Shown here: positions 985-64,000 of the stretch, piece after piece
How the letters are laid out: each line of letters opens with the position of its first letter
Position numbering within the stretch: the stretch's first letter is position 1
Assembly (NCBI GenBank): GCA_004335835.1
Contig: RWJK01001001.1
Location: forward strand, 34,399 to 98,398
DNA from: Scenedesmus sp. ARA3
Lineage: Eukaryota > Chlorophyta > Chlorophyceae > Sphaeropleales > Scenedesmaceae
DNA: 64,000 nt
Direction of reading: 5' to 3'
Translations under genes and position numbers: made by a program
Notes under the pieces: model-generated
Databases searched by the model: none
Seen by the model: the letters and a program-made list of their open reading frames with translations, nothing else
Told to the model about the DNA's origin: nothing

Positions 985-3366
985 ATGGACTCCGCAAAGC
1001 AGGCCGCAAACAAGGTGTCCGAGGCTGCAGGCCAGGTGAGTGCTGCTGTGGCTACTGCTGTTTTCACATAACAAGCATGTGTTGCACAGCTGCGGCTTGG
1101 TACTTATGTGCTGCACTGCACAGCTTCAACACGATGTGCAGCACAGCTGCTGTTTAGAGCTGTGCTGTGCTGCATAATGTCATCATGGTGTGCACAGGCC
1201 TGACATGCCAGCAGGACTGTGGCTAGGCATTGTCCTGCAAGCATATTCCTGCAGCATCAAAGCACACACAGCTGTGCCATCCCTTTCCAGGGCTACTGCT
1301 CAGCATGCCTGCTGCCAGCAGCTCTACTCCAGCCTTGTTCTGCCAGGAAGCTTCTTATCAGCTCCCAACTTGTCTCATCTGTCTGTGCTGTATCGTGCCC
1401 TGACTTCACTGCGTGCCTGCCACACTGCTGCCACTGCTCTGCATCTCCTCCTTTGCCCCTGGCAGGCATATGATGCTGCCGCCAACACCCTGAAGGAGGC
1501 AGGCAACAAGATCAGCGAGGCAACCACCGGCGCACAGCACTCCGCATCCGAGACCGCCACCCAGGTACGGCGGAAGGTGGCTGGTGCTGCGTCTGCTTGA
1601 ATTGCTGGTGCTGCGTCTGCCCTTCCCATGTGCTGCTGCCTGCTGTTGATCGGCTGTCGGCTGCACTGTAAGGCATCGCTACTTGCTGGTGCAACCCTAA
1701 CACCTGCTCATGTGCTGGCCCTTGTCACCTTGCTGTGTCCCGCAACGGCCCAATGCCGTGCCGTGCTGGTGATGTTGTCTGCCTGTCGACGCCGGCGCTG
1801 CTTGTCTGCACCCTGATCCCTGCTTGTCTGTTGCCTTGTGCGTTATGTAATCACAGGCCCAGCACCGTGCCGGTGAGGCCATTGATTTTGCCAAGCGCAA
1901 CATGGGCCAGACTGCTAACAATCTGCCCCTGACCGACTGACGGAAGCCTGTGTGCAATGTGCCTTGCTCCATCTGTTGTCGCTGTGCAGGCTCAGCACCG
2001 CGCCGGTGCGGCCATTGACTCTGGCAAGCGCAACATGGGCCAGACTGCTGACAATCCGCCCTGACTGACTGACTGACTGACGTAAGCCTTTGACTTGCTG
2101 CATCTGTTGTCACTTTGCAGGCTCAGCATCGCGCCGGTGAGGCCATTGACTCTGCCAAGCGCAACATGGGCCAGACCGCCAACAGTTGTGCCCTACTGAC
2201 GCAATCCTGTGTGCTATGTCGTCTTGTTTCCGTGCAGGCCCAGCACCGCGCGGGTGAGGCCGTTGACTCTGCCAAGCGCAACATGGGCCAGACCGCCGAG
2301 CAGGCGCAGCACCGTGCAGGCGAGGCCGCTGACAAGACCAAGGCGCAGGCCACGGTGAGGCACTGTGGCGAAAACAGAATTTTTATTGTGCATCTGCTGT
2401 TTATCGTTGCATGTTTGGTTGCCTGTCGGGCTGCTGCGGCACGTGCTGTTGCATTGGTCAGGCTGCTGACCAGACCAAGGCACAGGCCATGGTGAGGAAA
2501 TGGCTTTAACAATGGCGTGTTACATGATATTAAGTGTGCCTGCTGGGGTGCTGCACATGCTGTTGCGTTGGCGAGGCCGTTGACCAGACCAAGGCGCAGG
2601 CCACGGTGAGGCAGTGAGACGATGAACATAGTTGACTGTTGCATGTTTGGTCGCCTGCTGTTTACCGTTGCATGTTTGCTGTTTATTGTTGCATGTTTGG
2701 TTGCCTGCTGTTTATCGTTGCATGTTTAGTTGCCTGCGGTTTATCGTTGCATGTTTGATAATTGCCTGCTGGGCTGCTGCGGCACTTGCTGTTGCATTGA
2801 TCAGGCTGTTGACCAGACCAAGGCACAGGCCATGGTGAGATGAGGGTTGAAATGGACCAAAATGAGAGTGGTGTGTGTTGCTGAGCTGTGTAGGCTGCTG
2901 ACTAGGGCAATGTGAAGATGATGAAGCTTTTGTGTTTCATACTGTAGTGATATGCACTACAGCCTGTGTTGGTTGCGCTGCTGCAGCGAGTGCTAAAGTG
3001 ATGTGTAGGCTGGAGAAACTGTGCGTGGTTTTGTAGTGATGTCTTGAAGGTGTTGGCCACTAGCCACCCGCAGTCATTCAGCCTACACAGCCCTGCGCGC
3101 GTGTGCCTGCAGTAATGGCAAGTGCTGCATTTTTACCAAATAATATGTGAGCGCGGCCACATATACACCTGCCTTCAACTCGCAATGCTGGGGTGTAGTA
3201 ACACCTGTGCATCAAGATAGATTATGTGATTATTTGTTGACCTACTCAACGCCCATGTTTGCTGTTTCTGCTTTTGCTTTTGCTGCTGCTGCTGTTGCTG
3301 CAGTCTGCCAGCCACACCGTGCAGCACAAGGCTGATGACATCGCTGACAAGGCCCGTACCTCCTAA
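985..3366 (+). CDS. LEA-like hydrophilic repeat protein, 7 exons
   Basis: Exons joined at 985-1035, 1466-1564, 2238-2354, 2462-2491, 2576-2605, 2805-2834 and 3304-3366 give 139 aa. All internal junctions are phase 0. The product is very hydrophilic, rich in Ala, Lys, Glu, Gln and Thr, with repeats of the form AQHRAGEA..DSAKRNMGQTA and then four copies of a ten-residue unit such as AVDQTKAQAT. This is the pattern of group 3 LEA / dehydration-stress proteins, which are disordered in solution and become helical on drying. The start is the first ATG of an uninterrupted hydrophilic frame (MDSAKQAANKVSEA). There is no signal peptide or membrane segment, so it is probably cytosolic or organellar soluble. 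Exons 4, 5 and 6 are 30-bp micro-exons, each a copy of the last 30 bp of exon 3. A TGTAA polyadenylation-type motif lies near 3653. Extra pseudo-exon copies lie in the intron before exon 3. Confidence 0.75.
1857..2181 (+). repeat. Three tandem pseudo-exon copies of LEA exon 3 start
   Basis: Copies begin right after CAG acceptors at 1857, 1990 and 2121, about 131-133 bp apart, and repeat the first 60 bp of exon 3 (AQHRAGEA...GQTA) followed by intron-like sequence. Copy 1 meets an in-frame TGA after 28 codons. Copies 2 and 3 lose similarity after the same codon and have no matching donor. The genuine exon at 2238 continues without a break to a GTGAGG donor. They look like acceptor-side duplications that would truncate the protein if spliced in. 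Confidence 0.7.
2462..2834 (+). repeat. Three tandem 30-bp micro-exons with flanking intron
   Basis: Each unit has a similar upstream intron (CTGTTGCRTTGR..AG), a 30-bp exon coding A(A/V)DQTKAQA(M/T), and a GTGAGR donor. Copies start at 2462, 2576 and 2805. They match the last 30 bp of the preceding exon, whose peptide is AADKTKAQAT, so they are donor-side duplications that gained acceptors. All are phase 0 and keep the reading frame. Confidence 0.65.
2636..2765. repeat. Degenerate ~29-bp tandem repeat in a LEA intron
   Basis: The phrase GTTGCATGTTTG is repeated about five times at ~22-30 bp spacing, separated by TTGCCTGCTGTTTATC. It lies wholly inside the intron between the second and third micro-exons and is not coding. 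Confidence 0.6.
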
Positions 3367-4778
3367 ACAAGCCCATGTCACTCAAGCTCCCAGGCGTCCA
3401 AGCATCCCAGTGCTGTGACACCAGCCGGCCACCCTACTGCTTGACTTCATAGCAGGCGCCTGTATGTGTGCACGCATAGTGCCTGTGTGGGAGTTGTTGT
3501 GCCACTGTGGCTTGTATGCAGCGATCGTCGGCAAAGCTGTGTGATAATGCATAAGCGCGCAAAGCGCCAGGAAAAGCGCCAGCCAACGACGCTGTACTGG
3601 TGGTGGCTGAGTTTGTTGTTTGTGCAATTGCATGGTTGCTGGGTTGAAACCTGTGTAAGGAAAAGAACTGTGATCATTTCTGGGAGATTTTGATCTGCAG
3701 ATATGATGTAGGTACTCGAACAGCGGCAACAAACGGAATTTCAGAGCAGAGCAAGTAACAAACTTCTGATTGTGGCACATATGGAAAATGTGTGCAGACT
3801 ACGGTGCGGCACTGGCGGCTGGCAGCAGGGGCCCCTCCCGGGAGTGATAGTCATCTCAACACCCGGCTGTGCTGGTGCTGCAGAACGGCACATCAATATA
3901 TTGGACAGCCGTTAATGCCAGGCAGGTGATCACCGCAAAAAAACCTGTCACATATGTGTCCATGCGTGAACATGCAGCTGCAGCAGATGCATGCAGCTTG
4001 ACACACCACCACAGCGTGGGCCTGCGCCACACAGAATCTTTATCAAACCACACAGCCGGCGCCCTGCCCTGCCGGTGTACAAACATGCCAGTGCACTGTT
4101 GGCATGTGCTGTGCTCTTCGCACTGCTGACTGCCATTGTAAAGCAGCGTGCATGAAAGGCTGCACGTGAATCACTGTGAAGTGAGCATGCCTTCAGATGT
4201 AACAATGTAACAAGTGCCTGGATCATAGCCGTTGGCGTAACGGGATATACATATAATGAAATATTCATTGAGGTGGACCCCTCCGCTGCCAGGGGAACAA
4301 GCTCGGCAAAGAAAGCAGAAGGCAGCATGCCTGCAGCTAAACTGGTCATAAGGCAGCATTGAGACCACAGTCAGCACCACAGTGCGTGCTGCGGCGGCGC
4401 ACTGCTGTAGGTGTGGCAGTACACTGCAAATCGCGCGCAAAACGGAACATACACTGCCAGTGCGGTGCACATCACCTGCATGTGCCTGTCCTGCGAGTGT
4501 ACAAACAAGCGCCAGCAAAACCATAGTACATGACATGCACGCAAGCCACAGTAATTAACACTGTTTCTGCTGAGCAGCCAAATGCATGTACTACACAGCT
4601 CAGTACTACAACCCTGCACGCACAAAGCTGCAGTACAGCAGGTAAACGCCGCTGCATGATGTGCCAACCCTGCAGCCACGGAGGCACCAGTCTGCACACA
4701 ATACATTGTGTTGATACAATCCTGCCAATGAACAAACGTTGTATGCTGCTGAAGGCTCCAGCAAATGGCATGCTGCCA

Positions 4779-6032: not shown

Positions 6033-6350
6033 TGCATGTGTACACAAGCCCCCAGAGTACAACAGGCGCACCCACACACTGCAACTCTGCAAGCATGCAT
6101 GTGTGCGCAAGCCCCCAGAATACTACAAACGCACCCACACACTGCAACTCTGCAAGCATGCATCTGTGTACAAGCCCCGCAGCGCAACAACCACACCCAC
6201 ATACTGCAACTATGGGAGCATGCATCTGTGTACAAGCCCCCACAGCACAACAACCACACCCACACACTGCAACTATGGGAGCATGCATCTGTGTACAAGC
6301 CCCCACAGCACAGCAACTACACCCACACACTGCCACGCTGCGAGCATGCC
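6033..6350. repeat. Five-copy ~62-bp tandem repeat
   Basis: The units contain CCCACACACTGCAACT, then GAGCATGCATCTGTGTACAA and GCCCCCA. Starts near 6071, 6133, 6196, 6259 and 6322 give 62-63-bp spacing. Because 63 is a multiple of three, all six frames stay open and produce repetitive shadow ORFs. Confidence 0.8.
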
Positions 6351-19700: not shown

Positions 19701-21740
19701 GAAGCAGCAGCAGCAGCAGCATGCACAGCCCACAGTGTCGGATAGTGAGGATACAGCAGATGAAGATGAAGATGAGCGGGGCAAAGCAGCAGCAGCGGCA
19801 GCAGCACCAGCACAAGCAGTGGGGCGGCATGTTGTGACGGTGAAGCAGGAGCCTGAGAAGTGGCTTGACAGTGATGATCACGAGCAGCAGCAGCAGCAAC
19901 AGGTGTCAGCTGAGTGCAGAGCAGCTGCCGTGGATCCTGCAGAAGCGCTTCTGCAGGACATGCGCATGCAGCAGCAGCAGCTAGCACCAGCTAAGCAGCA
20001 GCAACAGCAGCGGCAGGCAGTGAGCATCAAGCAGGAGCGGCTTGATCCAGCTGAGCAGCTGCTGCAGGACATGCGGCAGCAGCAGCAGCAGCGGCAGCAG
20101 CAGCGCATCCCAGGGCGTGCAGGTGCGGCAGCACTTGAAGCTGAGGGCATTGATGCAGACAGCCAGCAGCAGCGCAAGCAGCATGTGCGCTACTCTTCTG
20201 CTAGCAGCTTTGCCACTGAGATGAGCACGGTGTCTGCAAAAGTGCCACTGCGCTTTGTGGGGTCGGGGCAAGAGCTGGACAGCTGCAGCATGGCTGCTGG
20301 TGGGGTGTCACCCTTGGAGCGGCTGCTGCAGGTAGCACTTGCTGGCAAAGCTGGAGCGCCTGCTGCTGATGTTGTCGATAGCAGTGCTGCAGCAGCAGCT
20401 GGTAATGGCGAATGTGCGGCTGGCGTTGCAGCAGCAGCAGGTTGCGGCAGCAGTGCTGCGGTGAAGCAGGAAGAGGCAGTGGGCTGGATGCACACGCCGG
20501 AAGAGCAGCAGCATAGGGCGGCGCGGCAGCGCACAGCGCGGGCAGGTGAGGCGCAGAGCTGTCTTTTCCCTATCAAATGTATGTATGCTGCGTAACTTTG
20601 CTGCCGTGGCTGCAGTGTGAACCAGATCCCGCCATCAAAGTGACGGCCACATATAATGTCTTGAGACATGCTGAAGTGGCCCTGTTGCTGCCCGGGCGCT
20701 GGCTTTCTGAACTGCTGCAGGCTATGCCAAGGCAGGGTCTCGCTGCGTCATCAGATGACGAGGCAACAATACACCTCACTAAGTCGCCCACAGGGGCCCT
20801 GGCAGCTTTCTAACATACTGCTGCCAAATCTGCTGCAGGGTATGCCGAGGCAGGGTCTGGCGCTGAGTCATCCAATGATGACGAGGCGTCCCTGGACCTC
20901 ACCAGATGCCCACAGGGGCCCTGGCAGCTGTCTGATACATTGCTGCCACATCGGTCGTTTTGAATCGTTTTCTGTCATTTACGGTTGTTTCTTGGTCGTA
21001 CTGCTGCAGGGTATGCCGAGGCAGGGTCATCTAATGATGATGACGAGGCGACCCTGGACCTCACTGAGATGCCCACTGGCGCCCTGGCAGCACGCGCCAA
21101 GCCCATGACGAAGCAGCTGGGGGCACACCTGGCACACCTCTCACAGGCGGGCTGCCAGCAGCAGGTGATCGCACTTGTGCATATATCCCGCACAGCTTGT
21201 TTGAAGCTCTGCTTGAGTGTAGGTTTCTGTCATGCTAGCAGCACGCGCCAAGCCCATGACGAAGCAGCTGGGGGCACACCTGCCACACCTCTCACAGGCG
21301 GGCTGCCAGCAGCAGGTGAGCACACTTGTGCATACATCCCGCGCAGCTTGTTGTATGCACTGCTTGAGTGTAGACTTCTGTCAGCTAGCAGCATGTGCCA
21401 AGCCCAAGACGAAGCAGCCGGGGGCACACCTGGCGCACCTCTCACAGGCGGGCTGCCAGCAGCAGGTGCGCACACTTCTGCATACATCCCGCGGAACTTG
21501 TTTGATGCACTGCTGGAGTGTAGACTTCTGTCATGCTAGCAGCACGTGCCAAGCCCATGACAAAGCAGCTGGGGGCACACCTGGCGCACCTCTCACAGGC
21601 GGGCTGCCAGCAGCAGGTGAGCACATTGCTGGTGTGCGGAAGAAGTACGTTTGCTGCATGTGCGTAAGTTTAGTCCTCCTTGCTCTTCTGCAGCGTATGC
21701 GCGTGTTGGAGATGTGACACACCTTTAACATGTGCAACCA

Positions 21741-21774
<34 letters not shown>

Positions 21775-24538
21775 TGCCAGGTCATCCCGCTGAAGCTGCT
21801 GTCCAAGGCTCCCAGGGGCAGCACTGCCAAGGCCTTCCATGGCTTGAGGGCCAGCAGCAAGCTGGTGTATGCAGACCAGGTCCAGGTGCGCTGCTTTGGG
21901 GTGCCGCAAATGCCGTGTGCCTGTTCCTGAGTGCTGAGCGGCCCACACTTGCTGTGGCACTCGAATCTACTGCCTAGCAAGCACTAGCTGCACAGGAACA
22001 GCATACAAAGCACAGGGCTGCGCCAGCGGCGCAGTCAGCGGTGCTGGCACTGCTCATGTGCATCCAATCAGCCCAACCAGCGAGCACTGGTCTTTTTGCA
22101 ACCAAGGAGGTGCGTGTCTATGGGCCCGTTGTGGCCTGACCAGTAATTCTTTGAATATCGTTGAATGTGTCAAGCATGGTATTGCTTGGCCTCGTTACTG
22201 ACTGCAGGTGCCGTGGGCACACGCCACCTTCAGCACCAAGGAGCGCAGCAGGTGTGCCATCGTGCAGGAGCTGGCGCCAGCAGCTGCAGCAGCTGACGCA
22301 GATGATGCCAGCAGCGGCAGCGGCAGCCAGCAGCGGGTGTTCCTTGCTGAGCCTGTTGCCTTCTACAAGCTAGAGTCAGGTGGGCTGGCAGGATGCTGAT
22401 GGGCTGGCTCTGTGTGCCTTCCACGGCATTACGCAGCAGCTTTGCTGCACCGAGCAGCAGTGCACCGTGCTCTTTCATTTATGATGATAGCCTGTGTTCC
22501 GCTGTCTCGCTGTCCACCATCCGGCAAATGCACTGCATGTTCAGCTGCAGGTGAGTTGTGGGTGGGGCTGCTGCGCTTCTACAGTTCTTCAGGCACAATG
22601 CTGCGCATAAACATATGCACTGCGTGTTGCTGCTGCTGCTGCCGCTGCTGCAGGCTAGTGGCAGGTGGAGCTGCTATGATCCTGCACTCTGCTTGCACTG
22701 CGCTGCGCTCGGGCAAATGTACTGCTGCTGCTGCTGCTGCTGCAGGCGAGTGGTGGGTGGAGCTGCTGCGCTTCTACAGTCCCCCATAGTCCCTTCTGCA
22801 ATTTGTCACACAGCACGGTGCTCATGCAACTGTGCTGCGTGCTGCCGCCGCTGCTGCTGCTGCTGCTGCTGCTGCAGGCGAGTGGTGGGTGGAGCTGCTG
22901 CGCTTCTACAGCAGCAAGGAGCTGCGGCTGCTGGCCAAGGCGGCAGACACGCGGCTGCACCTGCCGCCTGACTTCCAGCTCAGCTACGAGCTGCTGCGCG
23001 GCATGTCGCACGAGCACGTGCGGCTGCGGCAAGTGCAGGGTGAGTGGGCTTGGGCCTTGTGATTAACACTGCTAGGCTGGTTCACTGGGTGAGTGGTGTT
23101 GTGGTGGTGTGCACTGCTGCTGCGGGGCATGGCGCATGAGCACGTGCGGCTGTGGCAAGTGCGAGTAGAATGATCAAAAACATTGCAGAGGTGCTGCTGT
23201 GTAGATGGTGCGGTGGTGTGCTCTGCTGCTGCGGGGCATGGCGCACGAGCATGTGCGGCTGCGGCAGTGCAGGGTGAGTGCTTTGCGGTTCTTCCTTTTG
23301 CAATCGCAGTGCTGGGTTGTTGGTTGGCTGCTGGACTGGGTGGGTGGTGTGGTGAGAGCTCTGCTGTTGCGGTGCATGGCCACGAGCATGTGCGGCTGCG
23401 GCAGTGCAGGGTGAGTGCTTTGCGGTTCTTCCTTTTGCAAACGCAGTGTTGGGTTGTTGGTTGGCTGCTGGACTGGGTGGGTGGTGTGGTGAGAGCTCTG
23501 CTGTTGCGGTGCATGGCCACGAGCATGTGCGGCTGCGGCAGTGCAGGGTGAGTGCTTTGCGGTTCTTCCTTTTGCAATCGCAGTGTTGGGTTGTTGGTTG
23601 GCTGCTGGACTGGGTGGGTGGTGTGGTGAGAGCTCTGCTGTTGCGCGGCATGGCGCACGAGCACGTGCGGCTGCGGCAAGTGCAGGGTGAGTGGGCTGCG
23701 GTTCTTCTTCTGTGCACGCACTGCTAGGCTGGTTGGCTGGGTATGTGTTCTGATGGTGTGCTCTGCCGCTGCGGGGCATGGCGCACGAGCACGTGCGGCT
23801 GCGGCAAGTGCAGGGTGAGCACCTTGGTATCCATCTTTTGCAAATGCACTACTAGGTTGTTGGCTGCATGACTGGATAGGTGGTGTGGTCTGAGAGCTCT
23901 GCTGCTGCGGGGCACGGCGCACGAGCACAACCGGCTGCGGCAGGTGCAGGGTGAGCAGCCTGCTTGGACGTACTGCAGCGCGTAGCGTGTGAAGGCACCG
24001 TGAATGAGAGGCGTCTCTCCAGCCAGCTCACCATGCTAGTGATGGTGTGCATGGTCATGACATAGCTAGCCGGTGCCGCAAAGCTGCTGCTGCTGCTGCT
24101 GCTGCTGCTGCGCTGCAAACATGGTGGCTGCAGGCGAGTTCAAGCTGAGCAAGGTGAAGAAGGTGCCCGCAGCCAGCAGCAACATGTTTTCATGATTTTA
24201 ACAAGCAACAGCCATTGCTATGTTGTTGCTGCTCCTGCTGCTGCTGTTGTGCCATGTATGGCTGCAGGCGAGTTCAAGCTGAGCAAGGTGAAGAAGGTGC
24301 CCGCAGCCAGCAGCAACATATGTGCATGACTTCAACAAGCAACAGCCATTGCCATGTTACTGCTGCTGCTGTTGTGCCGTGTATGGCTGCAGGCGAGTTC
24401 AAGCTGAGCAAGGTGAAGAAGGTGCCCGCAGCCAGCAGCAGGGCGCGCCCCAACCCCTTCTTCTGGCGCTACAGCTTTGACAGCGCCAGCATGCAGGTGC
24501 TCACAGACAGGCCGGTGACGGACTTCACCGTGCAGTAG
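16750..24538 (+). CDS. BRCT-domain protein with long disordered Gln/Ala/Ser region
   Basis: Exons 16750-16891, 17033-20545, 21010-21164, 21781-21885, 22208-22379, 22878-23039 and 24393-24538 join in phase to 1464 aa. Residues ~40-125 form an N-terminal BRCT domain that crosses intron 1: GLVITSSG, FHGPAKQELQRLAHSFG, then TTHLICKR and the hallmark Trp in IVTYDWLL. BRCT domains bind phosphopeptides or each other in DNA-damage and replication proteins. The next ~1,090 residues are low complexity (polyQ, polyA, S-rich, acidic EE/ED patches) with TPVK-free but repeated VKQE and IKQER motifs that could be SUMO-acceptor sites (inference). The last ~250 residues are ordinary, conserved-looking sequence (KAFHGLRASSKLVYADQVQ, EWWVELLRFYSSKELRLLAK, RPNPFFWRYSFD) that I cannot assign. 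It is probably nuclear. The introns around exons 3, 6 and 7 are full of duplicated exon edges, so the true splice choices need transcripts. Confidence 0.75.
20721..20935 (+). repeat. Two pseudo-exon copies of BRCT-gene exon 3 start
   Basis: Copies after CTGCAG acceptors at 20721 and 20838 repeat the beginning of exon 3 (GYAEAGSSNDDDEATL at 21010). The first hits TGA after 12 codons. The second keeps GYAEAGSGAESSNDDEASLD and then shifts frame. Spacings are 117 and 172 bp. Confidence 0.7.
21085..21640 (+). repeat. Four-copy ~151-bp donor-side repeat at exon 3 end
   Basis: The last ~80 bp of exon 3 (AKPMTKQLGAHLAHLSQAGC) plus the donor and ~70 bp of intron occur four times. Donor GTs lie at 21165, 21316, 21466 and 21617, a period of 150-151 bp. 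Any of the four donors looks usable, but only the first follows an in-frame exon with a proper acceptor. Confidence 0.8.
22551..22795 (+). repeat. Three pseudo-exon copies of BRCT-gene exon 6 start
   Basis: The acceptor plus GAGTGGTGGGTGGAGCTGCT-like sequence occurs at 22551, 22654 and 22746, upstream of the true exon at 22878. The copies are preceded by CTG runs. The copy at 22746 runs into TAG and the one at 22654 is diverged. Confidence 0.75.
23100..23960 (+). repeat. Seven-copy ~130-bp donor-side repeat after exon 6
   Basis: The end of exon 6 (RGMSHEHVRLRQVQ plus GTGAGTG) and adjoining intron is repeated seven times, at about 23124, 23233, 23372, 23509, 23646, 23776 and 23910. Copies 3 and 4 are nearly identical over 135 bp. 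Six of the seven keep a GTGAG donor. This array creates His/Pro/Cys-rich shadow ORFs on the other strand. Confidence 0.85.
24120..24350 (+). repeat. Two pseudo-exon copies of BRCT-gene last exon start
   Basis: GGCTGCAG followed by GCGAGTTCAAGCTGAGCAAG and GTGAAGAAGGTGCCCGCAGC occurs at 24134 and 24268, and for a third time at the true exon 24393. The first two diverge after CAGCAGCAACAT and have no stop-to-donor continuity. Confidence 0.85.
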
Positions 24539-29900: not shown

Positions 29901-32900
29901 TCCCAGTTGGTCCGCTCTTCGCCAGTGAAGGGGTTGGTCCTTTCGCCATTGCTGAAGAAGCCGCGCTCACACGCTACACATCCGCCGTATGCGTTGTAGA
30001 ACTTGCGGCCAGAGCCGGCCTCGCAGACTGCAGGGCAGAGCAGGAGAACACACGTGTGTACACGCAGACGTCAGGTGATTGTAATGCGTTGACAGCACAA
30101 CAAGGGGGAGCAGCGGCAGGTCCAGGCAAGTAGCAACAGCTGCCGCCTTCTGACTACGTGCTGTGGTGCATTGTGTATCATCACGCAGCAGCTGCTGTCT
30201 CACATGCCTGCTAGATATGACAGTATAACGGCTGAACAACATGCCACATGACAGAGCATGCATGTGGTATGCCAGCTGGCTCGTACAATCTTGCAGCGCA
30301 GTGCACCACGACTGAAATCGGTTGGATGAGATCATGTTGCTCTACTCTTTATCTTACATACTAAAATACAAACACGAAATAATCGACTGATGCAGAGCCA
30401 TGTGGCACTTGCCTGTGCAGTTTGCCACAGAAATGGAGCCTGACTCAAGGGTAGTGCTGTAGGGTGGGCAAGACTTGCACCTGGCTGACACATCTGCAAA
30501 AGTTTCTTCGCCGCCTGTGCTACTGCTGTAACGGCCTACATGTACACGTGTACACGTGCAGCAGCACAAACTTCAGTGAGAGGCCACAGGTTGTGTAACA
30601 GCCTGCACTGGAGCAAGGTTGCATGATCTACAGTGCATGTCTGTACGCTGTCAACATGCACACGCTGCTGCAGCCGTTGATGCGCAAGACAAAGAGCTTT
30701 GCATGAAATCCACGGCAAGGCTGTATGTATCTAGCCGCTGGTGACTCTGCGTCCTGCGGCCGTCGCTCCACACAGGCGCACTGGAATATATGCTGCGGCA
30801 TCTTAACTGCCAAAAGGTCCTTGTGGCAAGCACAGATCTATGACGCACCTATGGGGCACTCAGCAACATCCAGCTTTGCCTGGTCCGCTAGGCTTCCAGG
30901 AACAGGCTTGGATGCCCCTGTGTCATACCACTTGTCACGTGGGGTGAGGCCTTCCGGGTTGTAAATGCCAAATCCAGGCTGCACGAAGCAGTTGATCACG
31001 GACTGCTTTTTCCCTGGCTCACTCAGCGTGGAGCGCCCCTTGCCACATTCAGTGCATGGAAGCTTGGACCTGGCGCGCAGGAAAAGCAAGTCACAAGTCA
31101 CAATCTCTATGCGTTGGAAGCAGGCAAGCCTGCTTGAGCCTATGATCTTCCGTGCGTAAAGTAGTGCGTAAAGTAGTGAAGGGACAGGCCTGGTAAAGGA
31201 AAAGAAGGGACAGGAGCTGGGTACGCAACACCAACTGAAGTGCAATAAAGTAAACGAATAACTCCCTGTTTAGTAAAACATTCACCAACAGAATGCGCAT
31301 TGTGACGCATGGTCCTATCAGCAGATGTGCCGTGCTTTGTCTGCACTTGCCTACACGCGTTCGTCAAAAAAAGCATTGATGACCGCTGCAGCAGTAAAAA
31401 GGAAGCCTGCGCCTTGCCTGCAGCACTTGAGATTCACTGCCAGCACCACTCAAATATTGCAACTGCTCCCACTAACTTGTCATCACTCACCCGCAATCAG
31501 CTCATGACCCTTCTGGCCACTTCCAAGCGCAATTGCATACATATTAATAACGAAAGACTTTGATGAAACAAACTCTCCCGCGAGCAACCCATGAGCCGTC
31601 CGAGCACTCCACAGCTGCTTTTGTATGAAAGAAGTTTTTTGATCATACAATTCTCTCCCACGAGCAGCCCATGAGCCGTCGAGGCACTCCGCAGCTGCCT
31701 CTGGAAAAATACAAAATTTCAGAAGGTATTGATGAAAAACTTTCCTGCGAGCAGCCCATGAGCCGTTGCAGCACCCAACAGCCGCCTTTGTGTAAATATA
31801 AATAAGAAATTAATACTTTGGTATTACAAGGCAGCTGTGGAGTGCTCGGACTGTTGATGGGCCGCTCGCCGGTGAGTTTATGTTCTTGAATGTCTTTTGT
31901 ATATTTATGCACAGGTGGCTGTGGAGTGCTCGGACGGCTCTTGGGCTGCTCGTGGGTGAGTTTTCTATACAGTTTGATTTATGAATGCGCATGTGGCTGT
32001 GGAGTGCTTGGTCGGCTTATGGGCTGGTTGCGATTGAGTTTTTTCAGAACATTTTTGGTTTGTACAAAGGCAGCTGTGGAGTGACTGGACGGTTCATGGG
32101 CTGCTCGCAGGTGAGATTTTTTCTCATTGTTATTTATCTAAAAAAAGGCAGCTGTGGAGTGCTCAGACTGCTGATGTGTTGTGGGTGAGTGTTCATAACT
32201 AAATACAAATTTAAGCAAATAATACATAAAATGTTAATCAACTGAATAACTAAGCAGGTAAATAAATAAATAAGCAGATAAATAAATAAACAAATAATAA
32301 ATAAGTACATAAATAAATTAAAAAATTAAAATTATAAATTTGCTATAAAATAACTCACCCACGAGCAGCCCAGGAGCCGTCCGAGCACTCTACAGCCGCC
32401 TTTGCATATGCTCCAAATCCAGCCGGGTTCATGCATCTGTCGCCGTATGGGCCCACTTCGTACCCCTCTCCGCAGTACACCGTGATAGGCCTGCATACAG
32501 TGGCTGAGGCCGTGCCAAAGGTCATAGCTGTGGCGCCAACTGTATTAATGGGGCAGGGAAATGCCCTCCACGTGCTGATGCTGGCATCCAAGGACAGATC
32601 CCGCACAAGGCCCCAATCTGGCATGATGTCTGCAACAGGCACAGCACAGGCAGCACATACCGCATTGTGTTTAGAACCACAAAACATGGCCCCAGCATAC
32701 GGGCAATGTGCTGAGCCTGGATGCCTGTATGGTTTGGATGAGGACGGTGACAGAATGGCAGGGAGCACGCTGGCTAGCCGTCCGCTCTCACAGCGTGATC
32801 TATGTTGACAGAACAGCTGTTGGGCCACTGCAGTATCCTAGAGGCAGCAAGCTGTTCAGGCCTGATATTGATCAACAATGCAGCCGGCGTGGCAGGCTGC

Positions 32901-42998: not shown

Positions 42999-45086
42999 CA
43001 CGTCTAGCAGTGTCGCAGCTGAATTAGTAAGCAGAGGCTTGGGCCCCAGCAGCGCTAACGCCGCACCAGCGATTCCCACAGCAGCAGTGATGGGGCAACA
43101 ACGCTTAGCCTGGCAGGTTAACAGCACCGGCGGCACCAGTACTGGTGTGCCAGCAAGCATGCATTTGCATGAAGCAGAGGTAACTGATACATAGCTCAAG
43201 CAGCGCCCACTTGCTGCAGGGATGACAGGGATAGCAGGAGTTTGACCTGCAGCACGCGCTATACCAGTCGCTGCAGGGATGACAGGATTGTGACCGCCAG
43301 CAGGCGCTATAACCGGCATTGTTATTGCGCTGAACATGTGTTAGCAGCTACTGCCGGCTGTAGCGAAGGCGCTCTGCATGCTGGGCTGCACAGCCATATG
43401 TTGCCTGCCGCCGTACATGTCTGCGTCGCGCCTCTATGCCTCTTGCACTGCTTACTGCTGCCTGCAACTGCTGCTGCTGCTGCAGGCCAAGCTTGAGGAG
43501 AAGGAGCGCAAGCACCTCCAGAAAACAAAAGGCATTAACTTCGAAGGTGCGCAGGCCTCAACAGCAGCAGCAGTGGCTGAAGTGCAACGGCATGATGTCA
43601 TCAGCAGCAACACCGACAGCTTCAGCAGCAACAGCAGCAGTGGCTGCAGCAGGCTGACATGCATTTCGCTGTGCCAAGTGCTTCAACAGCAGCGGCAGCG
43701 GCAGCAGCATCAGAAGCGTCAACAGCAGCAGACCACTGCTTGGTGGCTGTAGTGCCAGAACCAATTGCAGTACCACTTCTGCGACGACGATGCTCGCCGT
43801 ATCGCAGCCTTATATCGCTGCTTACTGTCCCTGCAAAGGAGCGCAAGGCAGACGCGAAGGCCGCCGGTTCAATCAAGGACTTCACCTGCAGCTCTTCTTA
43901 ACCCTAGAATCCACTCTTTCAACTGTTTGCATGTATCTGTGCCTGCAGAGGAGTGCAAGGCAGACATGGAGCTGCTGGAGGCTGCCCCGCCAGATGAGGG
44001 AGGCGGCGGCAGCAGAGCGCTGATACCCAACGCGCGCGACGCGGACGATGTGGATGCAGATGCAAGCAGCGATGACAGCAGCGACGTAAGTGGCGCCACT
44101 GGCGGTGCAAATACAGGATTGCATATGCAGTCAGCAGCTGCGTACGGCCTGTGTGGCAGAGGGGTGACGATGCCTGCAAGTGTGCTTGTCGTGAGTGTGC
44201 TTGTCGTGAGTGTGCTTGTCGTGAGTGTGCTTGTGGTGAGTGTGCTTGTCGTGTGCTTGTGGTGAGTGTGCTTGTCGTGAGTGTGCTTGTGGTGAGTGTG
44301 CTTGTCGTGTGCTTGTGGTGAGTGTGCTTGTCGTGAGTGGCGCGCTGATATTCTTCTTCCTCATTTGACTGTCAGCTTGCCAGCAAACGGCCCATGCATA
44401 CACAGCAGCAGCAGCAAGGGCAGCAAATAAAGGCTGCTATGCAGGTAGATCCACCGCGTAGTGCATCGCACATGCAGCGCACTAGCTTGCCTGCAGCAAC
44501 AATGGTTTGACTTGCTCTTCACGCGTGTCATGACACTTGTTATTCAACAGGATGTTGACGATGTCTCAGATGATGAGGCGGAGCTCAAGGCCGAGCTTGA
44601 ACGGATCCGAGCTGAGCGCGCAGCAGAAGCAGAGCGGCGCCTTTTCTGCTCACTTGCAACACATTGTGTGACGCTTGCCACACTTGTTATGTAACAGGAT
44701 GATGATGACGACTCAGACGATGAGGCAGAGCTCAAGGCCGAGCTCGAGCGCATCCGAGCTGAGCGCGCAGCAGAAGCAGAGCGGCGAGCAGCAGAGGAGG
44801 AGGCGAAGCGGCAGGAGGCCATCCGGAGTGAGGTGCTGGGAGGCAACCCGCTGATGGCTGGAGCAGGGGAGGTGGACTTTGGCGTCAAGCGCAGGTGAGG
44901 CAGAGGAAGGAAGCTGGCATGTGTTGCAGTGCTGGAGTTTTTTGCTGGTTTGTTGTGTGTTGTGCAGTGGGGTGGTGGTTACTTGGCAGACAACCGCTTT
45001 GGTGCAAGCTCGGCAGTTGATTTGAGAACGTGGTCTTGTGACCTGAGAATGTGGCAGATCTGAACCAACAACTGCATGCTACTGCA

Positions 45087-45118
<32 letters not shown>

Positions 45119-45282
45119 TCTGTGCCACAGTTGGGGCGAGGACGTGGTGTTCAGGCACCAGGCTGCACTGAGTTAGCGTGCATGTGCCGCCTGTGCTTGC
45201 ATGTGTCAGCAGGTGGGACGAGAGGGTGGTGTTCAACAACTGTACAACGTCTGCCTAACCTCTCTGAGTCTGTTGTTATGCT

Positions 45283-56768: not shown

Positions 56769-58953
56769 CTACAGCAGCTCGTCACCAGCAGGCTGCTGCG
56801 GCTGCGCTGCTGCTGCACTGTCTTGGCTCGCACTCGCTGCTGCTGCCGCCATGGCTGCTGCTTCGCTCCACTCAACACCGCGCATTGCAGCAATGGCCTT
56901 CAGCACCTGTGCATTGCAATAACAACACAGGAGCTCTAGTAAACAGACAGGTTGTGTAGTTGAGCTACCTGCTGTACACAGGCATTTGTACAGCTGCAGT
57001 CAGCAGCAGCTCAAACCTGCTCAGCAGCCGGCTGGCACAAATCAGCAGTGACACAACAAAGTAGTGACACAATGCAGTGGTGACACAACACAGCCTCCGC
57101 CAGGGAGCAAAACACGCCAGCAGGTGCAGCTTGTGGCAACGCATTACTCAGCATCTGCACAATCAAGTGGCTCACAACAACCACCCGCGCACCTTGACGT
57201 CTGCACTGCCACCCGCCAGAGCACCCTCCGCCAGGCTGCCAAATGCGTCAGCAGGCGCAGCAGCAAACAGCTGCGCAGTGACCAGCGCGGGCGGCGGCGC
57301 CACTGCCAGTGCTGCCATCACATTGGCGATGTACTCCGCATCTGCTGCCAGCTGAGCGCCGCCTGATGCAGACAACGTTTTGATCTGCAGTAGGGACTCG
57401 GCATACAGCAGCCCCGCGCCGCGCACCACCTGCATGTTGCAGGAGATGAAACATTACAGTGACACGTGGGCATACAATGCATTGGATTGGGAGCAGCGTA
57501 CGCGACACATACAGAATGGCAGGACTATGGCTGACTTGCTGTTTGGACTGCTGTACACCCGGCCCCGTCCAGCATGACTGCAGCAAGCCCTCCTACCTCT
57601 GCTGCTGCTGCATTGCTGCGCCTGCTTCTGCTTCTGCCCCAAACCCTCCCACGTCAGCCATCAACCGCAAAATCCAAATAAGCCTGCTCACCCTGTCCAG
57701 CCACTCTGCAGTCAGCTCGTCTCCCTCTGCTGCCTCCGCCTGCAGCACCTCTTTGTGCTTCCGCGCCAAGCCCTAAGGCCCCGGCCCTCAACCATAACAC
57801 CCAAGCCCTGCACCGCTCACCTTGTCTAGCCATTCTGCAGCCAGCTCGTCTCCCTCTGCTGCCTGCTGTGGCCCTGCTTACAGCATCAGCATCATCTTCA
57901 TGCCCCAGCCCTGAACTGTCAGCCCCAAGCCCCGCCCTGCAGCACTGCAGCCCCCAAAACTCCCGCATGCCTCGGCCCTACACCCTAAGCCTTAAGACCC
58001 GCCCTGTAAAAGTGCTCACCTTGTCTAGCCATTCTGCAGCCAGCTCATCCCCTTCTGCTGCCTCCGCCTGCAGTGCTGCTGCCTCCTGGCTGCTGCCGCC
58101 TGCTGCTGCTGTCTCATCTCCCATGAGCACCTCCAGCTGCTGCGGCAGCGCCATCAGGTACTCCCCTGGCAGCAGCAGCAGCAGGACACATCGCTTGACT
58201 CAGTGCAGAGCTCAACAGGAAAGCAGGATCAAGCAGGGTATGCCCCCCAATAAGCAGGCAACGACAGGCTTTTCAAGTAGACCCTGGCGGCAGCACAGCA
58301 AAGCAGGCACACGTGAGGTACACACCACAAACACACACACACACAGAGCAGCTGAGACTATTGACCACCTCGTTACCATCTTGTCACAACATGCAAGCTT
58401 CACACATGCTGCTGCAAATGGAAGTCAGCAGCAGCAGCACGGCACCCTTTCATCAACTCACCAACAGCAGTGACGGCTGGCAGGGGGTAGGCGCTGAACG
58501 ACGGCACCACAGCACCTGCAGCAGCAGCAGCAGCAGCAACGCAGGGCTCATGTTGGAAAGCGCGGTACAATTGCCTGCCACCAACACTGCTGACCAGACC
58601 CTCACGCAAGCATTCGAAGGCACAGTACTGCTGACTTGTCGACCCTGCTTGCCAAAGCGCTATGCAGGGTTGTGATGTGGTGGCAAGCTGCCAAAGAGCA
58701 GCGGCTGCAGCAACAGGTGGTCATGCCAGCGGCCCACAATACTGCTCTAGCTTGCACAAGCAACCCCAAGCAGCTGGCATCCATACATATATCCATACAA
58801 CTGCCAAACTCACCTGCCCCTGGCATCACGCCTGTGCCGCTGCCTGCCCCAGCCCAGTCAGGCAGGCCAGGCAGGGGTGCCAGCGCTGCCACCACGGGCG
58901 CAAGCAGCGCATCGTACACAGCAGCTGAGATGGCCTCGTAAAGCGCGCCACCT

Positions 58954-58997
<44 letters not shown>

Positions 58998-59194
58998 GGT
59001 GTTTGGTCAATGCAGCAGCCACCACTGGCGCCAGCACCGCATCATACGCAGCAGCAGAGATAGCCTCACAAAGCGCCGCCTGCAGCAGCAGCAGCAGCAG
59101 CAGTGGTGATGTTGAGATCAATGCAGCAGCCACCACCGGCGCCAGCAGGGCATCGTACACAGCAGCAGATATGGCCTCACACAGCGCGCCACCT

Positions 59195-59249
<55 letters not shown>

Positions 59250-59337
59250 TTGTGTTGAGATCAATGCAGCAACTGCCACTGGCGCCAGCAGGGCATCGTA
59301 CACAGCAGCAGAGATGGCCTCACAAAGCGCGCCACCT

Positions 59338-59383: not shown

Positions 59384-62300
59384 ACGCCATCGGCGATGAC
59401 GTCAACGGTACCTCAGCTAAATCCACTGCAGTGCAGCACTCGCTCCATGTCCAACACTTGCTCCCATGCCATCGCCGCCTATGCTGCCACCATACAGCTT
59501 GGCAGATCTGTTCCAGTGAAAGTGCATTGCGCACCTGCAACTGTGGCTGATGGTAGTGACATATAGCGCGAGCTCCCAACAGCAGCCTGCAGCTTGGCCA
59601 GCTGCGGCAGCTTGGCCGGAAACGCAGCAAGCTGTGCAACACTGAAAGCTGCCTATCTGTGGGCGGCGAACAATGCTGTATCAACCTCGCTGCTTCACAC
59701 CGCCTTCATGACACACCACACACAACAGGACCACAAAACACTTGAATACGAAAGCGCTGCGCACCTGCAACTGTTGCTGATGGTAGTGACATGAAGCGCG
59801 AGCTTGCAGCGGCAGCCTGCAGCTTGGCCAGCGGCGGCAGCTTCGCCGGAAACGCCGCGAGCCGCAGCGGCAGCAGCTCAGCAGCAGCCGCCGCAGCAGC
59901 AGCAGGCGCACCCTGCTGCTGCTGCTGCCCAGTTGCTGCTGCAGCTGCTGATGTTAAGCCTACTGGAGGCAGCCCGGCAGCTGCTAAGGCTTGCAGGCGT
60001 GGTATGGTTTGTGCGAGTGTGCTGCGCAGGTGTGTCTCGAGGGCGTTGAGTTTGCTGCTGATGTGGCGCGCTAGCAGCACCAGCTGCAGCATGACGCTGA
60101 TGTCAGCAGCGGGTGAGGCTGCTGCAGCGAGGCGTGTGTACCTGAAAGCAGGAAGCAGCAGGTACAGCAGGTGCATCAGCAAGCAAAGTGATGACAGGCA
60201 CCTCGCATATGTAGCAAGACAGCAAGATGAGGGCCTGCAGAGAGCTCCTTCAACAAGCAGCATTTGCAGCACAGCCCATGGTTGAGCGTTGAGTTTGCTG
60301 CTGATGTGGCGAGCCAGCAGCACCAGCTGCAGCATGACGCTGATGTCAGCAGCGGGCGAGGCTGCTGCAGCGAGCCGGGTGTACCTGGTGTTTAGAGAAT
60401 GTTCAGATAGACAGCAGCAGCAGGTGCAGCAGCAAGAGGTTATGGCATGCATTATGTGTACAGCAAGGCAGCGGTATGAGTCCTGCCGGCTAGGCCGCAA
60501 CCAGCAGCATCCACAGCACCGCAGATACCAGAGAGCTCACTCGCTTTTGTCAGCAGTCAAAGCTGTGTGATGTGTTCCGTCCAGGTTGAAGGATGGGGTA
60601 CAACCCACCTCAAACCCTTCCACCTGCCGTTGACGATGCCCACGGCAGCCTGCAGCTGCTGCAGGTACCGTGCCAGCTGCCTGCCGCTGCTGCACCTCAT
60701 ATCACAAATCAAACCTTGCGAATCAGTTCAGCAGAAGAGCATGGCAGAGACCGATTCGAGCCCCTCACCTGCCATTGATTATGCCTACTGCCGCCTGCAG
60801 CCGCTGCAGATAACCTGCAAGCTGCTTATCCAGGCTAGCTAGCAGCCCAGGCAGCTCCGTGCCACCTGTCAGCTGCATGCAGCGCTCCACCACGCCCCAC
60901 AGCGCAGAGAAAGCAGCAGACACTGCTGCTGCCAGCTTCTGCGCTACATCCTGCTCTAGCTCCTCAGCATCCCCTGCTGCTGCTGCTGCTGCTGAGTCAG
61001 CAGCGCTGCCGGGTGAAGGGCCTTTGGGGTTTGCTGCTGCTGCTGCTGTGTTGATAGGCAGGGGTGCGGAGAGTGCTGCAGAGATGACTGGCTCCTCAAG
61101 TGAGATGTAGCGGGTGATCTGCAGGCAGGACACAAGCAGTACATGCCGCGTGCACACTTTCAGAGTGCATTTCTTCAGCGTGCACGATCCTAGAGTGGAT
61201 ACTTCACGCACACGCGCACAAACGCACGTGCGCACGCACATACGCACTTTTCCATGCGCACGCGCCTGCTTGCACGCACTCATGCCCGGCCACCCACCCG
61301 CCCATGCCCGCTCGTACGCACCGCACGCACGCGCGCACCGCACGCACACGCGCGCGCATGCAAGCACACTCTCACCCACTGACCCACACACGCGCCTGCA
61401 CCCACGCACGCGCACTCACGCACACACCTACACGCGGCACACACACACACATGCAAACACATCTGTGCGCGCACGTGAGCATGCACACACACACGCACAC
61501 ACATACCCTCACACACACATGCACATGCACATACACGCATGCACACACACCTGCACACACCAGCACGTGCGCACGCATGCACACACCTGCACGCACCAGC
61601 ACGCGCAGACGCCCATGCCCCCACGCACACCACGCGCACACGCACACATGCATTCCCCCCGCGCACGCACTTGCGCCGGCCCACCCGCACATATTCCAGC
61701 CGCCCGCATCCCTGCCCACACACACACGCACACGCGTGCATGTGTGCCTGCGTAATTAGCCCCCCCCCTCCCCCTCGGCCCCGCCGGCTCGTACATGCAC
61801 ACCCCCACACATGCGCGCGCACATCACCCTTGCTCGCATGGGCACGCGCGCATGCGTACAGGCTCTTTCACACACACCCGCGCGCGCGCGTGTGTCAGCA
61901 ACCACGCATGCACGCGCACGCATACACCTGTGCGGGCACGCACACACACATACACATGCGCGCACATGCTAACACATATGTGCCTGCACGAACGAGCGCA
62001 CGCACGTGCACCCAAATACAGACCCACATCTAAGCGCCAACACACATAGCGCGCCGGCGCAAGAGCAAGCACGCACGCACCCACGCACCAAAAGTGCACA
62101 GCGTTCAATACCATCATTCAGCTGTTTGAGTCGCGGCCGCTCCCACCTGCTGCTCCACAGGCTCCAGAGCAAGCCGCAGCAGCTTCAGCACCACAGCGCC
62201 ATCAGCAGAGCCATCCTTACCGCCTGCTGCTGCTTCTGTCGGTGCTGCTGCTGCCAGCAGCTCGCGCAGCCGCCGTGCAGCCAGCAGCGCATCGCCCAGC

Positions 62301-64000
62301 AGCCCCGCCAGCAGCCGGCTGCTGTGCAGCGCCGCCAGCCTCTCCCGCAGCGATTTGTTGAGCTGCAGGCCAGCAAAAGACCAGGCAGCAAGTCAGGAAT
62401 CACAGAAAAAGCGGGACATGTACAGCGCTGCCAGCTGATTGACCTGCAATCCAACAGTTCGGCCGCAGCCCTGCCAGCAGCCGGCTGCTGTGCAGTGCCG
62501 CCAGCCTCTCCCGCAGCAACTTGTTGAGCTGGATTGCAACCAATGGTTTGATTCAACAGCAGACGAGGAAGTAACGAGTCAGTGTGACAACCATGAACCA
62601 GCAGCCGGCCGCAGTGCAGCGCCGCCAAGTTCTCCCGCAGCGGCTTGTTGAGCTGTAACCACAAACAGTCAAGTGATTAGGCAAGAGATGAGGCAGCGGC
62701 AAATCAGGCGTGACTGCGGGGCACCTTTGACGGTGAGAGCAGCGCTGCAAGCTTTTCCCGCAGCGCCTTGTTGAGCTGCAGAGTTGAGAAATGAGTGCAA
62801 CATGTTTAGCTGGAAACCAACTATCCAAGTTTGTTTGTAGCAGTGGGTCGAAAGGCATAAATCGCCCTGCAGGATGCTGCCTTGAATGCAGATTACACAC
62901 AGCCCAACGCGGCAACCATCACCGCCACTTGCAGCTGCCGCTGCTGCCCCGGCAGGCACCCCGCCAGCCACGCCGCATCCCCTTCCAGCAGCCCCATCAG
63001 CCCATGGCATACATCAATATTGATGCTTCTTTCTCCAGCTCTTTTTCACAGCAGATTCGCCTGCAGCTAGCCCAGCAATGCTGACCACGCAACGCCCTGC
63101 AAGATTGCCACCCTGCATCTGAGGCAACCCACCTTTTCAAACGCAGCAACCATCACCGCCACCAGCAGCTGCCGCTGTTGTCCAGGCAGGCACCCTGCCA
63201 GCCACGCCGCATCACCTTCCAACAGGCCCATCAGCCCATTGTACAGCAGCAGCAGCCAGCCGCCGCCCAACCCGCCAGCTCCGCTGCCTGCTGCTGCTGC
63301 CGCTGCTGCTGCGCTGCCGCCCGCCAGCATTGCTGCTGCCTCATCCCACAGGGCAGAGACAAGCGGCATGCGGCTGGCAACGTATGCGGCTTCCAGGCTG
63401 CTGTAGCGGCCGACGGCCAGCAGCAGCGCTGCCAGGGAGGACACTTCTTGGCTGGCATTGGCCTGCAGGAAGCAGAGCATGAATGAAAGATCGTTTGCTT
63501 CCTTTGTTTATTGGTATGGGCAGTGCCGGCATAGCGAGGGGGTGTGGAGTGTGCAAATGCGCGCACAGCTGAGCACAACGTTGGGGGTATTGCTGGGTGT
63601 GCTGCTGGCTGAGGCGTTGCGAATCGCATCTGCTCGGCGCATCCCTCCCCTCCAAGTGCACACGTGTAGCGCGCTGCCCAACCGCATGTACAACCACCCA
63701 AACCCGTTTGCCTGCCTGCCTGCTGCTGCTGCTGCTGCTGCTACTACTGCTGCTGCTGCGCTTCACCTGCAGCGCATCACCCAGGCGCCCCTCCACGCGC
63801 CGCTGCAGGCGGTCCTCCAGCCCAGCCAGCCTCCCTCATGCCCTCAGCACGCCATCCCACACGAAAGCATGCACAGCTGTACGAGACACCGCGCGGCCGC
63901 AGGACCTAATTGCCCGCCCACAATCCAACTGAATAGACCACACTAACCTGCAGCGCATCAGCCAGCCGCCCCTCCACGCGCCGCTGCAGGCGGTCCTCCA
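56769..64000 (-). CDS. COG7: Conserved oligomeric Golgi complex subunit 7 (5' end outside window)
   Basis: Minus-strand exons 63948-64000 (partial), 63133-63462, 62147-62362, 60769-61118, 59765-60141, 58814-58951, 58462-58515, 58020-58165, 57193-57429 and 56769-56906 join in phase to ~678 aa of C-terminal sequence. COG7 hallmarks: EDRLQRRVEGRLADAL then AVGRYSSLEAAYVASR; VPSFSAYPLPAVTAVGEYL then MALPQQLEVL; and the end GGAQLAADAEYIANVMAALA then VAPPPALVTAQLFAA. COG7 is a lobe-B subunit of the COG tether that guides retrograde vesicles within the Golgi; it is a cytosolic peripheral protein. Ala-rich inserts make the algal protein longer than plant homologues. Almost every intron contains near-copies of the adjoining exon edge, and intron 62146-61119 holds ~900 bp of CA/CG-alternating DNA. 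The N-terminal coiled-coil part lies beyond 64000. Confidence 0.9.
57690..57885 (-). repeat. Two donor-side copies of a COG7 exon end
   Basis: The end of exon 58020-58165 (EGDELAAEWLDK plus donor) recurs at about 57690-57760 and 57825-57880, spaced ~140-190 bp. Both keep CTC(A)CC..GTC.AGCCA, meaning a GTGAG-type donor on the minus strand. Confidence 0.8.
58953..59385 (-). repeat. Three acceptor-side copies of a COG7 exon start, each with a CTG array
   Basis: The start of exon 58814-58951 (ALYEAISAAVYDALLAPVVA) recurs at about 59012-59077, 59125-59193 and 59272-59338. Each copy and the genuine exon is preceded, on the minus strand, by a (CTG)n run (~14, ~8, ~18 and ~14 units). The unit is exon fragment plus ~25 bp plus CTG array, so the whole block is a nested repeat. 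The copies lack a donor and drift out of similarity after about 65 bp. Confidence 0.85.
59565..59645 (-). repeat. Donor-side copy of a COG7 exon end
   Basis: The end of exon 59765-60141 (FPAKLPPLAKLQAA, then the donor region with GTCACTACCATCAGC) is repeated about 226 bp downstream on the minus strand, diverged so that the frame is broken. Confidence 0.7.
60283..60390 (-). repeat. Acceptor-side copy of a COG7 exon start
   Basis: The first ~105 bp of exon 59765-60141 (YTRLAAAASPAADISVMLQL) is repeated upstream with its own CCAG acceptor near 60388 (minus strand). Similarity ends after SSKLNA, and no donor follows. Confidence 0.85.
60590..60690 (-). repeat. Donor-side copy of a COG7 exon end
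   Basis: LQQLQAAVGIVNGR at ~60625-60665 is a copy of LQRLQAAVGIINGR at the end of exon 60769-61118, together with ~50 bp of following intron. The copy has GTGGAA where the exon has GTGAGG. Confidence 0.8.
61198..62095. repeat. ~900-bp alternating purine-pyrimidine (CA/CG) tract in a COG7 intron
   Basis: The stretch is dominated by ACGCAC, ACACAC, GCGCGC and TGCATGC steps with a short C-rich break near 61757. It is intronic (between exons 62147 and 61118). Alternating CA/CG DNA readily adopts the Z form, and this accounts for the long His/Thr/Cys-rich frames on both strands. Confidence 0.85.
62478..62785 (-). repeat. Three acceptor-side copies of a COG7 exon start
   Basis: The start of exon 62147-62362 (LNKSLRERLAALHSSRLLAG) recurs at about 62478-62532, 62595-62652 and 62725-62780, spaced ~120-130 bp. 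All keep GAG(C/A)TTGTTGAGCT in plus orientation, meaning a CTCAACAA exon start. The outermost has a perfect CTGCAG acceptor. Confidence 0.85.
62915..63005 (-). repeat. Donor-side copy of a COG7 exon end
   Basis: GLLEGDAAWLAGCLPGQQRQ from exon 63133-63462 is repeated ~210 bp downstream. The copy keeps the peptide but loses the exon end and donor. Confidence 0.8.
63767..63822 (-). repeat. Donor-side copy of a COG7 exon end
   Basis: EDRLQRRVEGRLGDALQ with a GTGAAG donor lies 181 bp downstream of the near-identical exon end at 63948-64000, whose donor is GTTAGT. Either donor might be used; both are phase 0. Confidence 0.8.

Follow-up and report, generated by a model that had tools for sequence, protein, structure and literature searches.

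Copied exon edges in five neighbouring genes

The window, i.e. the whole 64-kb stretch of DNA analysed here, carries a LEA-like gene, a BRCT gene, a GCC2/3-like gene, CWC15 and COG7, and in all five of these unrelated neighbours segments spanning an exon edge recur in the adjoining intron. Alignment of the junctions to the introns yielded 40 direct copies distributed over 18 splice junctions (Table 1), one of the CWC15 cases being weak; a preliminary description had given about 20 copied junctions in these genes. The LEA-like gene contributes two junctions with six copies, the BRCT gene five with 16, CWC15 two with two, and COG7 eight of its 18 junctions (nine introns) with 13, while a single GCC2/3-like junction has three direct and five inverted copies. 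Up to seven copies were found per junction. An automatic threshold was passed by 15 of the 18 junctions and 35 of the 40 copies; the last exon of CWC15, the COG7 exon at the contig end and the GCC2/3-like junction were added beyond it. The extent given originally (985-64000) is to be corrected in that these positions represent outer bounds only. Local direct repeats (at least 40 nt, within 1.5 kb, low-complexity matches removed) amounted to 61 pairs in the window versus none in either of two equally long order-4 Markov sequences.

Table 1. Copies of exon edges in the window
Gene	Copies	Position	Strand
LEA-like	three upstream copies of acceptor and start of exon 2238-2354	1854..2180	+
LEA-like	three downstream copies of end of exon 2238-2354 and donor	2460..2839	+
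BRCT	two upstream copies of start of exon 21010-21164	20711..20928	+
BRCT	three downstream copies of end of exon 21010-21164 and donor, period 151	21235..21620	+
BRCT	two upstream copies of acceptor and start of exon 22878-23039	22549..22779	+
BRCT	seven downstream copies of end of exon 22878-23039 (six with donor)	23116..23955	+
BRCT	two upstream copies of acceptor and start of exon 24393-24538	24125..24315	+
GCC2/3-like	three direct copies of end of exon 32359-32490, in its intron	31566..31793	-
GCC2/3-like	five inverted copies of end of exon 32359-32490, spacing 77-84	31809..32181	+
CWC15	one upstream copy of start of exon 44698-44894	44533..44639	+
CWC15	one weak upstream copy of start of last exon 45328-45450, partly TGC repeat	45076..45161	+
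COG7	two downstream copies of end of exon 58020-58165 and donor	57685..57864	-
COG7	three upstream copies of start of exon 58814-58951, delimited by (CTG)n tracts	59015..59337	-
COG7	copy of end of exon 59765-60141 and donor	59518..59632	-
COG7	copy of acceptor and start of exon 59765-60141	60286..60451	-
COG7	copy of end of exon 60769-61118 and donor	60621..60680	-
COG7	three upstream copies of acceptor and start of exon 62147-62362	62465..62781	-
COG7	copy of end of exon 63133-63462, without donor in this assembly	62906..63005	-
COG7	copy of end of first exon present (63948-64000) and donor	63765..63819	-

The hand-built COG7 model comprises ten exons, all bordered by GT-AG introns, with a single open frame to the stop codon. 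Its product shares 94-98% identity with five Tetradesmus obliquus proteins (best local alignments, 49-96% of the query), and Pfam confirmed the COG7 domain on one of them (P0002). For CWC15, the exons span the entire length of a 232-aa T. obliquus protein with 99% identity. Because COG7 and CWC15 are this similar, the source genome is, judged by these proteins, that of T. obliquus itself or of a very near relative. Pfam also confirmed the BRCT domain on the window's own protein; the C-terminus of the single homologue found follows the modelled exon order and lacks the repeats (compared by eye). The LEA-like label derives from an earlier reader and from sequence character, the only Pfam hit being an apolipoprotein match far under the cut-off. 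For PF07699, the window's contig did not appear among the 120 matches listed.

Most alignments continue across the junction rather than ending there. Of the 68 copies from all loci, four stop short of the exon edge; among those that reach it, 29 of 30 acceptor and 28 of 34 donor copies have intact splice dinucleotides. Retention of splice motifs had been noted correctly. It had also been stated that the copies usually lack the second boundary. Indeed, no aligned copy covers a whole exon (rows with a copy as query exon set aside; probes of at most 150 bp of exon), but each LEA-like copy at 2461-2834 reads as a 30-nt in-frame block with an AG before it, albeit of weak acceptor score, and a GT after it. 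The individual arrays differ in character. In BRCT, three of the copies at 23116..23955 contain frameshifting gaps, and the copies at 24125..24315 are identical over their 48 exonic bases. The COG7 copy at 60286..60451 has five exonic differences, all of them at third codon positions and all synonymous, and the weak CWC15 copy reaches a score of only 43 after masking.

Several repeats were observed besides these copies. In the GCC2/3-like intron the five inverted copies lie beside the three direct ones, therefore at least one locus also involved inversion; as the two sets are complementary, long hairpins could potentially form in the pre-mRNA. Minisatellite arrays at 6033-6349, 8338-9199 and 44179-44339, with periods of 63, 221, 108 and 15, lie away from any identifiable exon edge, and the COG7 intron at 61150-62100 (~1.0 kb) consists largely of GTGTGCGTG-type simple repeats.

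Deposited COG7 proteins of T. obliquus provide a view on the use of the copies. Three of them (P0002, P0003 and P0004) are deposited under one locus tag: P0003 repeats in frame 15 exon-end residues that correspond to the copy at 62906-63005, P0004 repeats 12 residues that correspond to a 36-nt block at 63767-63802, and P0002 has each of these blocks once. Judged by eye, the 3' splice site of both inserts would be an AG inside the copied exon sequence. P0001 matches the modelled exons, and neither this COG7 protein nor the T. obliquus protein P0014 contains copies. COG7 of Scenedesmus sp. NREL 46B-D3 (P0006) has extra segments that, read by eye, resemble exon edges, one of them located at the start of an exon that is also copied in the window's COG7. 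The Chromochloris protein P0007 lacks repeated blocks at the protein level. Self-comparison of six COG7 proteins returned nothing below E 0.05, the blocks in P0003, P0004 and P0006 having been read from the alignment. The proposal of micro-exon birth is backed by two annotated isoforms that repeat exon ends, both being protein models. The copies appear to be mostly skipped in the deposited COG7 and CWC15 proteins. As a separate observation, P0002-P0005 lack ~90 residues inside exon 59765-60141 that are present in P0001, which looks like an intron called within the exon, from a GT to an AG inside the coding sequence.

Occurrence and placement beyond the window

The genome assembly comprises 87.3 Mb in 1567 contigs. 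Beyond the window, we sampled 28 loci (237.7 kb), a not strictly random set consisting of 16 of 20 fixed positions on evenly numbered contigs, six kinase loci and six positions on large contigs. Exons of at least 70 bp with a strong coding score were taken from a purpose-written gene finder. Two predicted exons that are themselves copies (21385-21465, and 4271-4345 of locus L013) were removed, which reduced the list from 199 to 197 exons, 32 of them in the window and 165 in the 28 loci; a further copy, 21223-21315, had not been on the list. The gene finder still fuses genes and, because it keeps one strand per region, overlooked the GCC2/3-like gene on the minus strand; this gene was modelled separately and does not enter the counts of the junction-copy test. 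In this test, one 58-bp probe per exon edge was aligned to 1 kb of flanking non-exon DNA, and scores of at least 55 were counted.

Copies on the expected side were detected at 15 of 61 junctions in the window (7/29 donor and 8/32 acceptor edges) and at 19 of 308 junctions in the other loci (9/147 donor and 10/161 acceptor edges), versus 0/61 and 2/308, respectively, on the wrong side. The junction copying reported for the window thus extends to the sampled genome. No inverted copies occurred in this test, neither in the window nor in the other loci, the GCC2/3-like gene being outside it, and mid-exon controls gave 0/11 in the window and 0/80 elsewhere. Intron segments near the same junctions served as an additional control and had copies in 7/60 cases in the window and 6/298 in the other loci. 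At a score of 45, nine of the 28 loci, 27 of which contain exons, showed at least one junction copy. The window is richer in junction copies than the other loci (p 6e-5). An earlier run with 164 exons, in which copies were still part of the exon list, gave similar results with one wrong-side window match per class. Together, the expected-side and control counts demonstrate that junction copying is general but patchy, and that the window is a rich spot.

Duplications in the other loci were assigned to junctions (20), introns (15), intergenic DNA (6) and exons only (2). The junction share is 20/41 (0.49) versus 0.20 expected under uniform placement, and 16/24 (0.67) versus 0.16 in the window; the expected shares may be somewhat low because exon calls are incomplete. 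Within genes only, the shares are 0.57 versus 0.29 in the other loci and 0.73 versus 0.18 in the window. The claim of dense, splice-site-anchored copying in unrelated neighbouring genes accordingly withstands comparison with uniform placement. In the placement test two window clusters were relabelled to junction by hand: 62906-63239 (exon-only), because it represents the COG7 exon-end copy, and 63765-64000 (intron), because it lies at the contig end. Exon-only duplications in the other loci remained below expectation (2 versus 6.7).

Junction-spanning tandem units measure mostly 90-270 bp. Their median of 134 bp compares with 121 bp for non-junction units (p 0.05), and hence a junction-specific unit length is not clear. 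Junction periods do not favour a reading frame (12, 12 and 10). Duplicates with at least 93% identity are few: two junction and three intron cases in the window, one of the latter (63765-64000) being counted as junction elsewhere, and two junction, two intron and one intergenic case in the other loci.

Two further candidates were considered and rejected. A genome search that skips simple repeats and very common words was carried out with four arrays. Those at 1854..2180 (LEA-like), 21235..21620 (BRCT) and 62465..62781 (COG7) had no match elsewhere in the genome, and the BRCT array at 23116..23955 had none outside its own locus; since all four match their own locus only, a dispersed element is rejected for them. 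Breakpoints at triplet tracts were not apparent either, CTG/CAG hexamers near copy borders ranging from 28 to 56% versus a background of 34%, with no clear pattern. (CTG)n tracts were seen right before some CAG acceptors at the position expected for a polypyrimidine tract, e.g. at 22833-22877 and 58952-58996.

Divergence and splice strength of the copies

Splice sites of copies and exons were compared by a score trained on sites called real. Donor copies resemble the real donors, with 10 higher and 9 lower of 31, whereas 25 of 29 acceptor pairs are unequal, and in 19 of these the copy scores below the real acceptor. The copies probably represent decoy splice sites, as had been suggested, which are mostly skipped in the deposited proteins.

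Differences between exons and copies were classified by codon effect. Locus L013 was excluded here, and likewise from the tests on identity halves, splice partners and border hexamers and from the stop and gap counts. With one copy per family, 116 differences are synonymous and 63 are not, i.e. 65% versus ~40% expected under free drift. The synonymous share is 61% (60 to 38) with CpG sites removed, 79% (45 to 12) in COG7, 60% (53 to 35) in the other loci and 44% (7 to 9) in BRCT. Changes private to one copy are synonymous in 43% (31 to 41) versus 26% expected (p 0.002). Donor copies with an in-frame acceptor partner show 54 synonymous to 23 other changes versus 21 to 23 for those without, a difference (p 0.02) that is uncorrected and obtained with thresholds of our own choice on copies that are not independent. 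Most acceptor copies (25/29) lack an in-frame donor partner, and despite this they are synonymous-biased too (80 to 44). Of 12 gaps in exonic parts of copies, nine are frameshifting. Nearest copies are 92% identical in their exonic halves and 67% in their intronic halves, with 59% for unrelated sequence; the intronic halves are clearly homologous in 9 of 36 cases. Any of three processes could account for the synonymous excess: part-time coding use, role exchange among the members of an array, or birth from diverged alleles.

Origin and possible fate of the copies

We consider it probable that pervasive short local tandem duplication combined with survivorship generates decoy sites and, occasionally, material for micro-exons and introns. 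According to this model, short tandem duplications (median ~134 bp, mostly 90-270 bp) would arise throughout noncoding and gene-edge DNA. When the unit spans one junction, one copy would stay joined to the exon body and be used, while the other would be left in the intron with its GT or AG and would mostly be skipped. A copy that finds an in-frame AG or GT as partner could be spliced in as a micro-exon, which would add an intron as well. The prevalence of copies on the geometrically expected side, in the window and elsewhere, supports tandem duplication, as do the close unit sizes of junction and other duplications, the indifference of junction periods to frame, the four arrays confined to their own locus and the divergence of most copies in a window free of N. 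The deposited proteins also fit this model, P0001 and P0014 being devoid of copies and P0003 and P0004 including two that P0002 lacks. Two one-sided classes of copies had been distinguished originally. Both exist, but a distinct mechanism of exon-edge copying is not supported: a junction-spanning tandem unit by its geometry leaves one extra edge, i.e. an acceptor upstream or a donor downstream, and duplications of similar size occur away from exons. Against simple neutral duplication speak the junction excess, the higher identity of exonic over intronic halves and the synonymous excess. Survivorship can account for some of the junction excess, as exon-only duplications may be purged and exon-edge copies may be recognisable for longer, so that junction events would be over-represented among the visible ones. 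Birth of micro-exons and introns from the copies represents a genuine but unproven potential.

A far-reaching extension holds that exon-edge duplication is genome-wide in Scenedesmaceae, that copies persist since many are occasionally translated, thereby providing a reservoir of in-frame micro-exons and new introns, and that this process is a main reason why T. obliquus introns are long (mean 462 bp versus 230-302 bp in four other green algae in a published table; PMC5966456). We regard this extension as doubtful.

Among the rival explanations, use of many copies as cassette micro-exons under weak protein-level selection appears unlikely, even though it would account for the synonymous excess, for the bias among copy-only changes, for the stronger bias of donor copies with an in-frame partner and for isoforms P0003 and P0004. 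BRCT looks neutral and some of its copies are frameshifted, the acceptor copies are biased mostly without having a partner, and the junction periods are indifferent to frame. A mutational process directed to junctions, e.g. linked to R-loops or splicing, would place duplications at exon edges and thus explain an enrichment of ~2.4-fold (other loci) to 4-fold (window) over uniform placement, as well as the ~3-fold higher copying frequency of edges in the other loci compared with intron segments close by (p 0.013 at score 55, p 0.03 at score 45). However, similar-sized duplications occur elsewhere, most alignments cross the junction instead of ending at it, and survivorship can partly give the excess, which renders such a process rather improbable. 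Alternatively, unequal exchange between diverged alleles or strains could have produced copies that were diverged at birth, so that differences in the exonic parts would have been mainly synonymous from the outset. The contrast between exonic and intronic halves, the bias in copies without a splice partner and the T. obliquus COG7 proteins, which differ from the window's COG7 by 2-6%, fit with this scenario; yet multi-copy arrays show copy-specific, partly constrained changes, and exchange across poorly matching introns would be needed, making it quite improbable. Finally, an assembly artefact through unmerged haplotypes or repeat expansion, conceivable for a draft of 1567 contigs with N in four fetched loci and with 4 of 73 aligned copies showing no difference from the exon in their aligned exonic portion, is highly improbable because the other 69 copies differ at up to about a quarter of exonic sites, up to seven copies occur per junction, the window is free of N, and separately deposited T. 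obliquus isoforms contain two of the copies.

Several known systems resemble the copying in the alga. In a single gene, potato RdRp, an intron was gained through a tandem duplication that crosses an intron-exon boundary (Ma, Lan and Niu 2016, PMC4974935). There, a direct tandem copy likewise spans one junction and inherits its splice signals, and a cryptic site in the exon can become the partner of the copied site, as in the window's copies. In contrast to this one event in one gene, the alga has 18 junctions in 64 kb and ~6% of the other sampled junctions with copies. In the COG7 isoforms, as read from the copies, it is the donor that was copied and an exonic AG that acts as its new partner, i.e. 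the mirror image of the potato case. A single event of this geometry is on record for potato RdRp, and nothing of comparable density appeared among the papers listed.

A tandem genomic duplication model of intron gain has reportedly been put forward by Rogers, by Gao and Lynch and by Hellsten. In the sections seen of a review (PMC3443670), tandem duplication is a well-supported route of intron gain, and direct tandem copies spanning an intron-exon boundary were indeed found here. As in this model, local duplication supplies new splice sites; however, the model duplicates an exonic AGGT segment, whereas the algal units extend over a real junction and their copies are for the most part skipped. 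Local duplication of coding sequence together with splice signals is also common to tandem exon duplication and mutually exclusive exons, but these involve whole exons as far as described in the part consulted (PMC6071210), whereas no aligned copy covers a whole exon in the alga. Introners similarly represent a lineage-specific source of intron sequence, but their copies reside in many genes according to the excerpt used (PMC9860276), in contrast to the four arrays that match their own locus only. Short repeats in complex tandem patterns are known from the Haematococcus genome, with no link to exon edges made in the portion of the paper seen (PMC7617258). Passages of the genome papers on NREL 46B-D3 and S. 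obliquus AS-6-11 do not mention dense junction copying, and among the open-access papers listed, a scope outside which most subscription papers lie, no account of it for green algae appeared, in line with what had been surmised.

Intron growth and intron gain, like the birth of exons, are as a rule deduced from isolated examples. With copies at ~6% of the sampled junctions, and at a quarter of those in the window, counting, cross-strain dating and cDNA tests would become possible. The copies are also relevant to the choice of the spliceosome among several similar sites, as donor copies score like real sites and acceptor copies lower. Moreover, they call for care in annotation: exon-edge copies look coding and may either enter gene models by mistake or represent genuine minor isoforms. 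Our purpose-written gene finder itself took some of them for exons.
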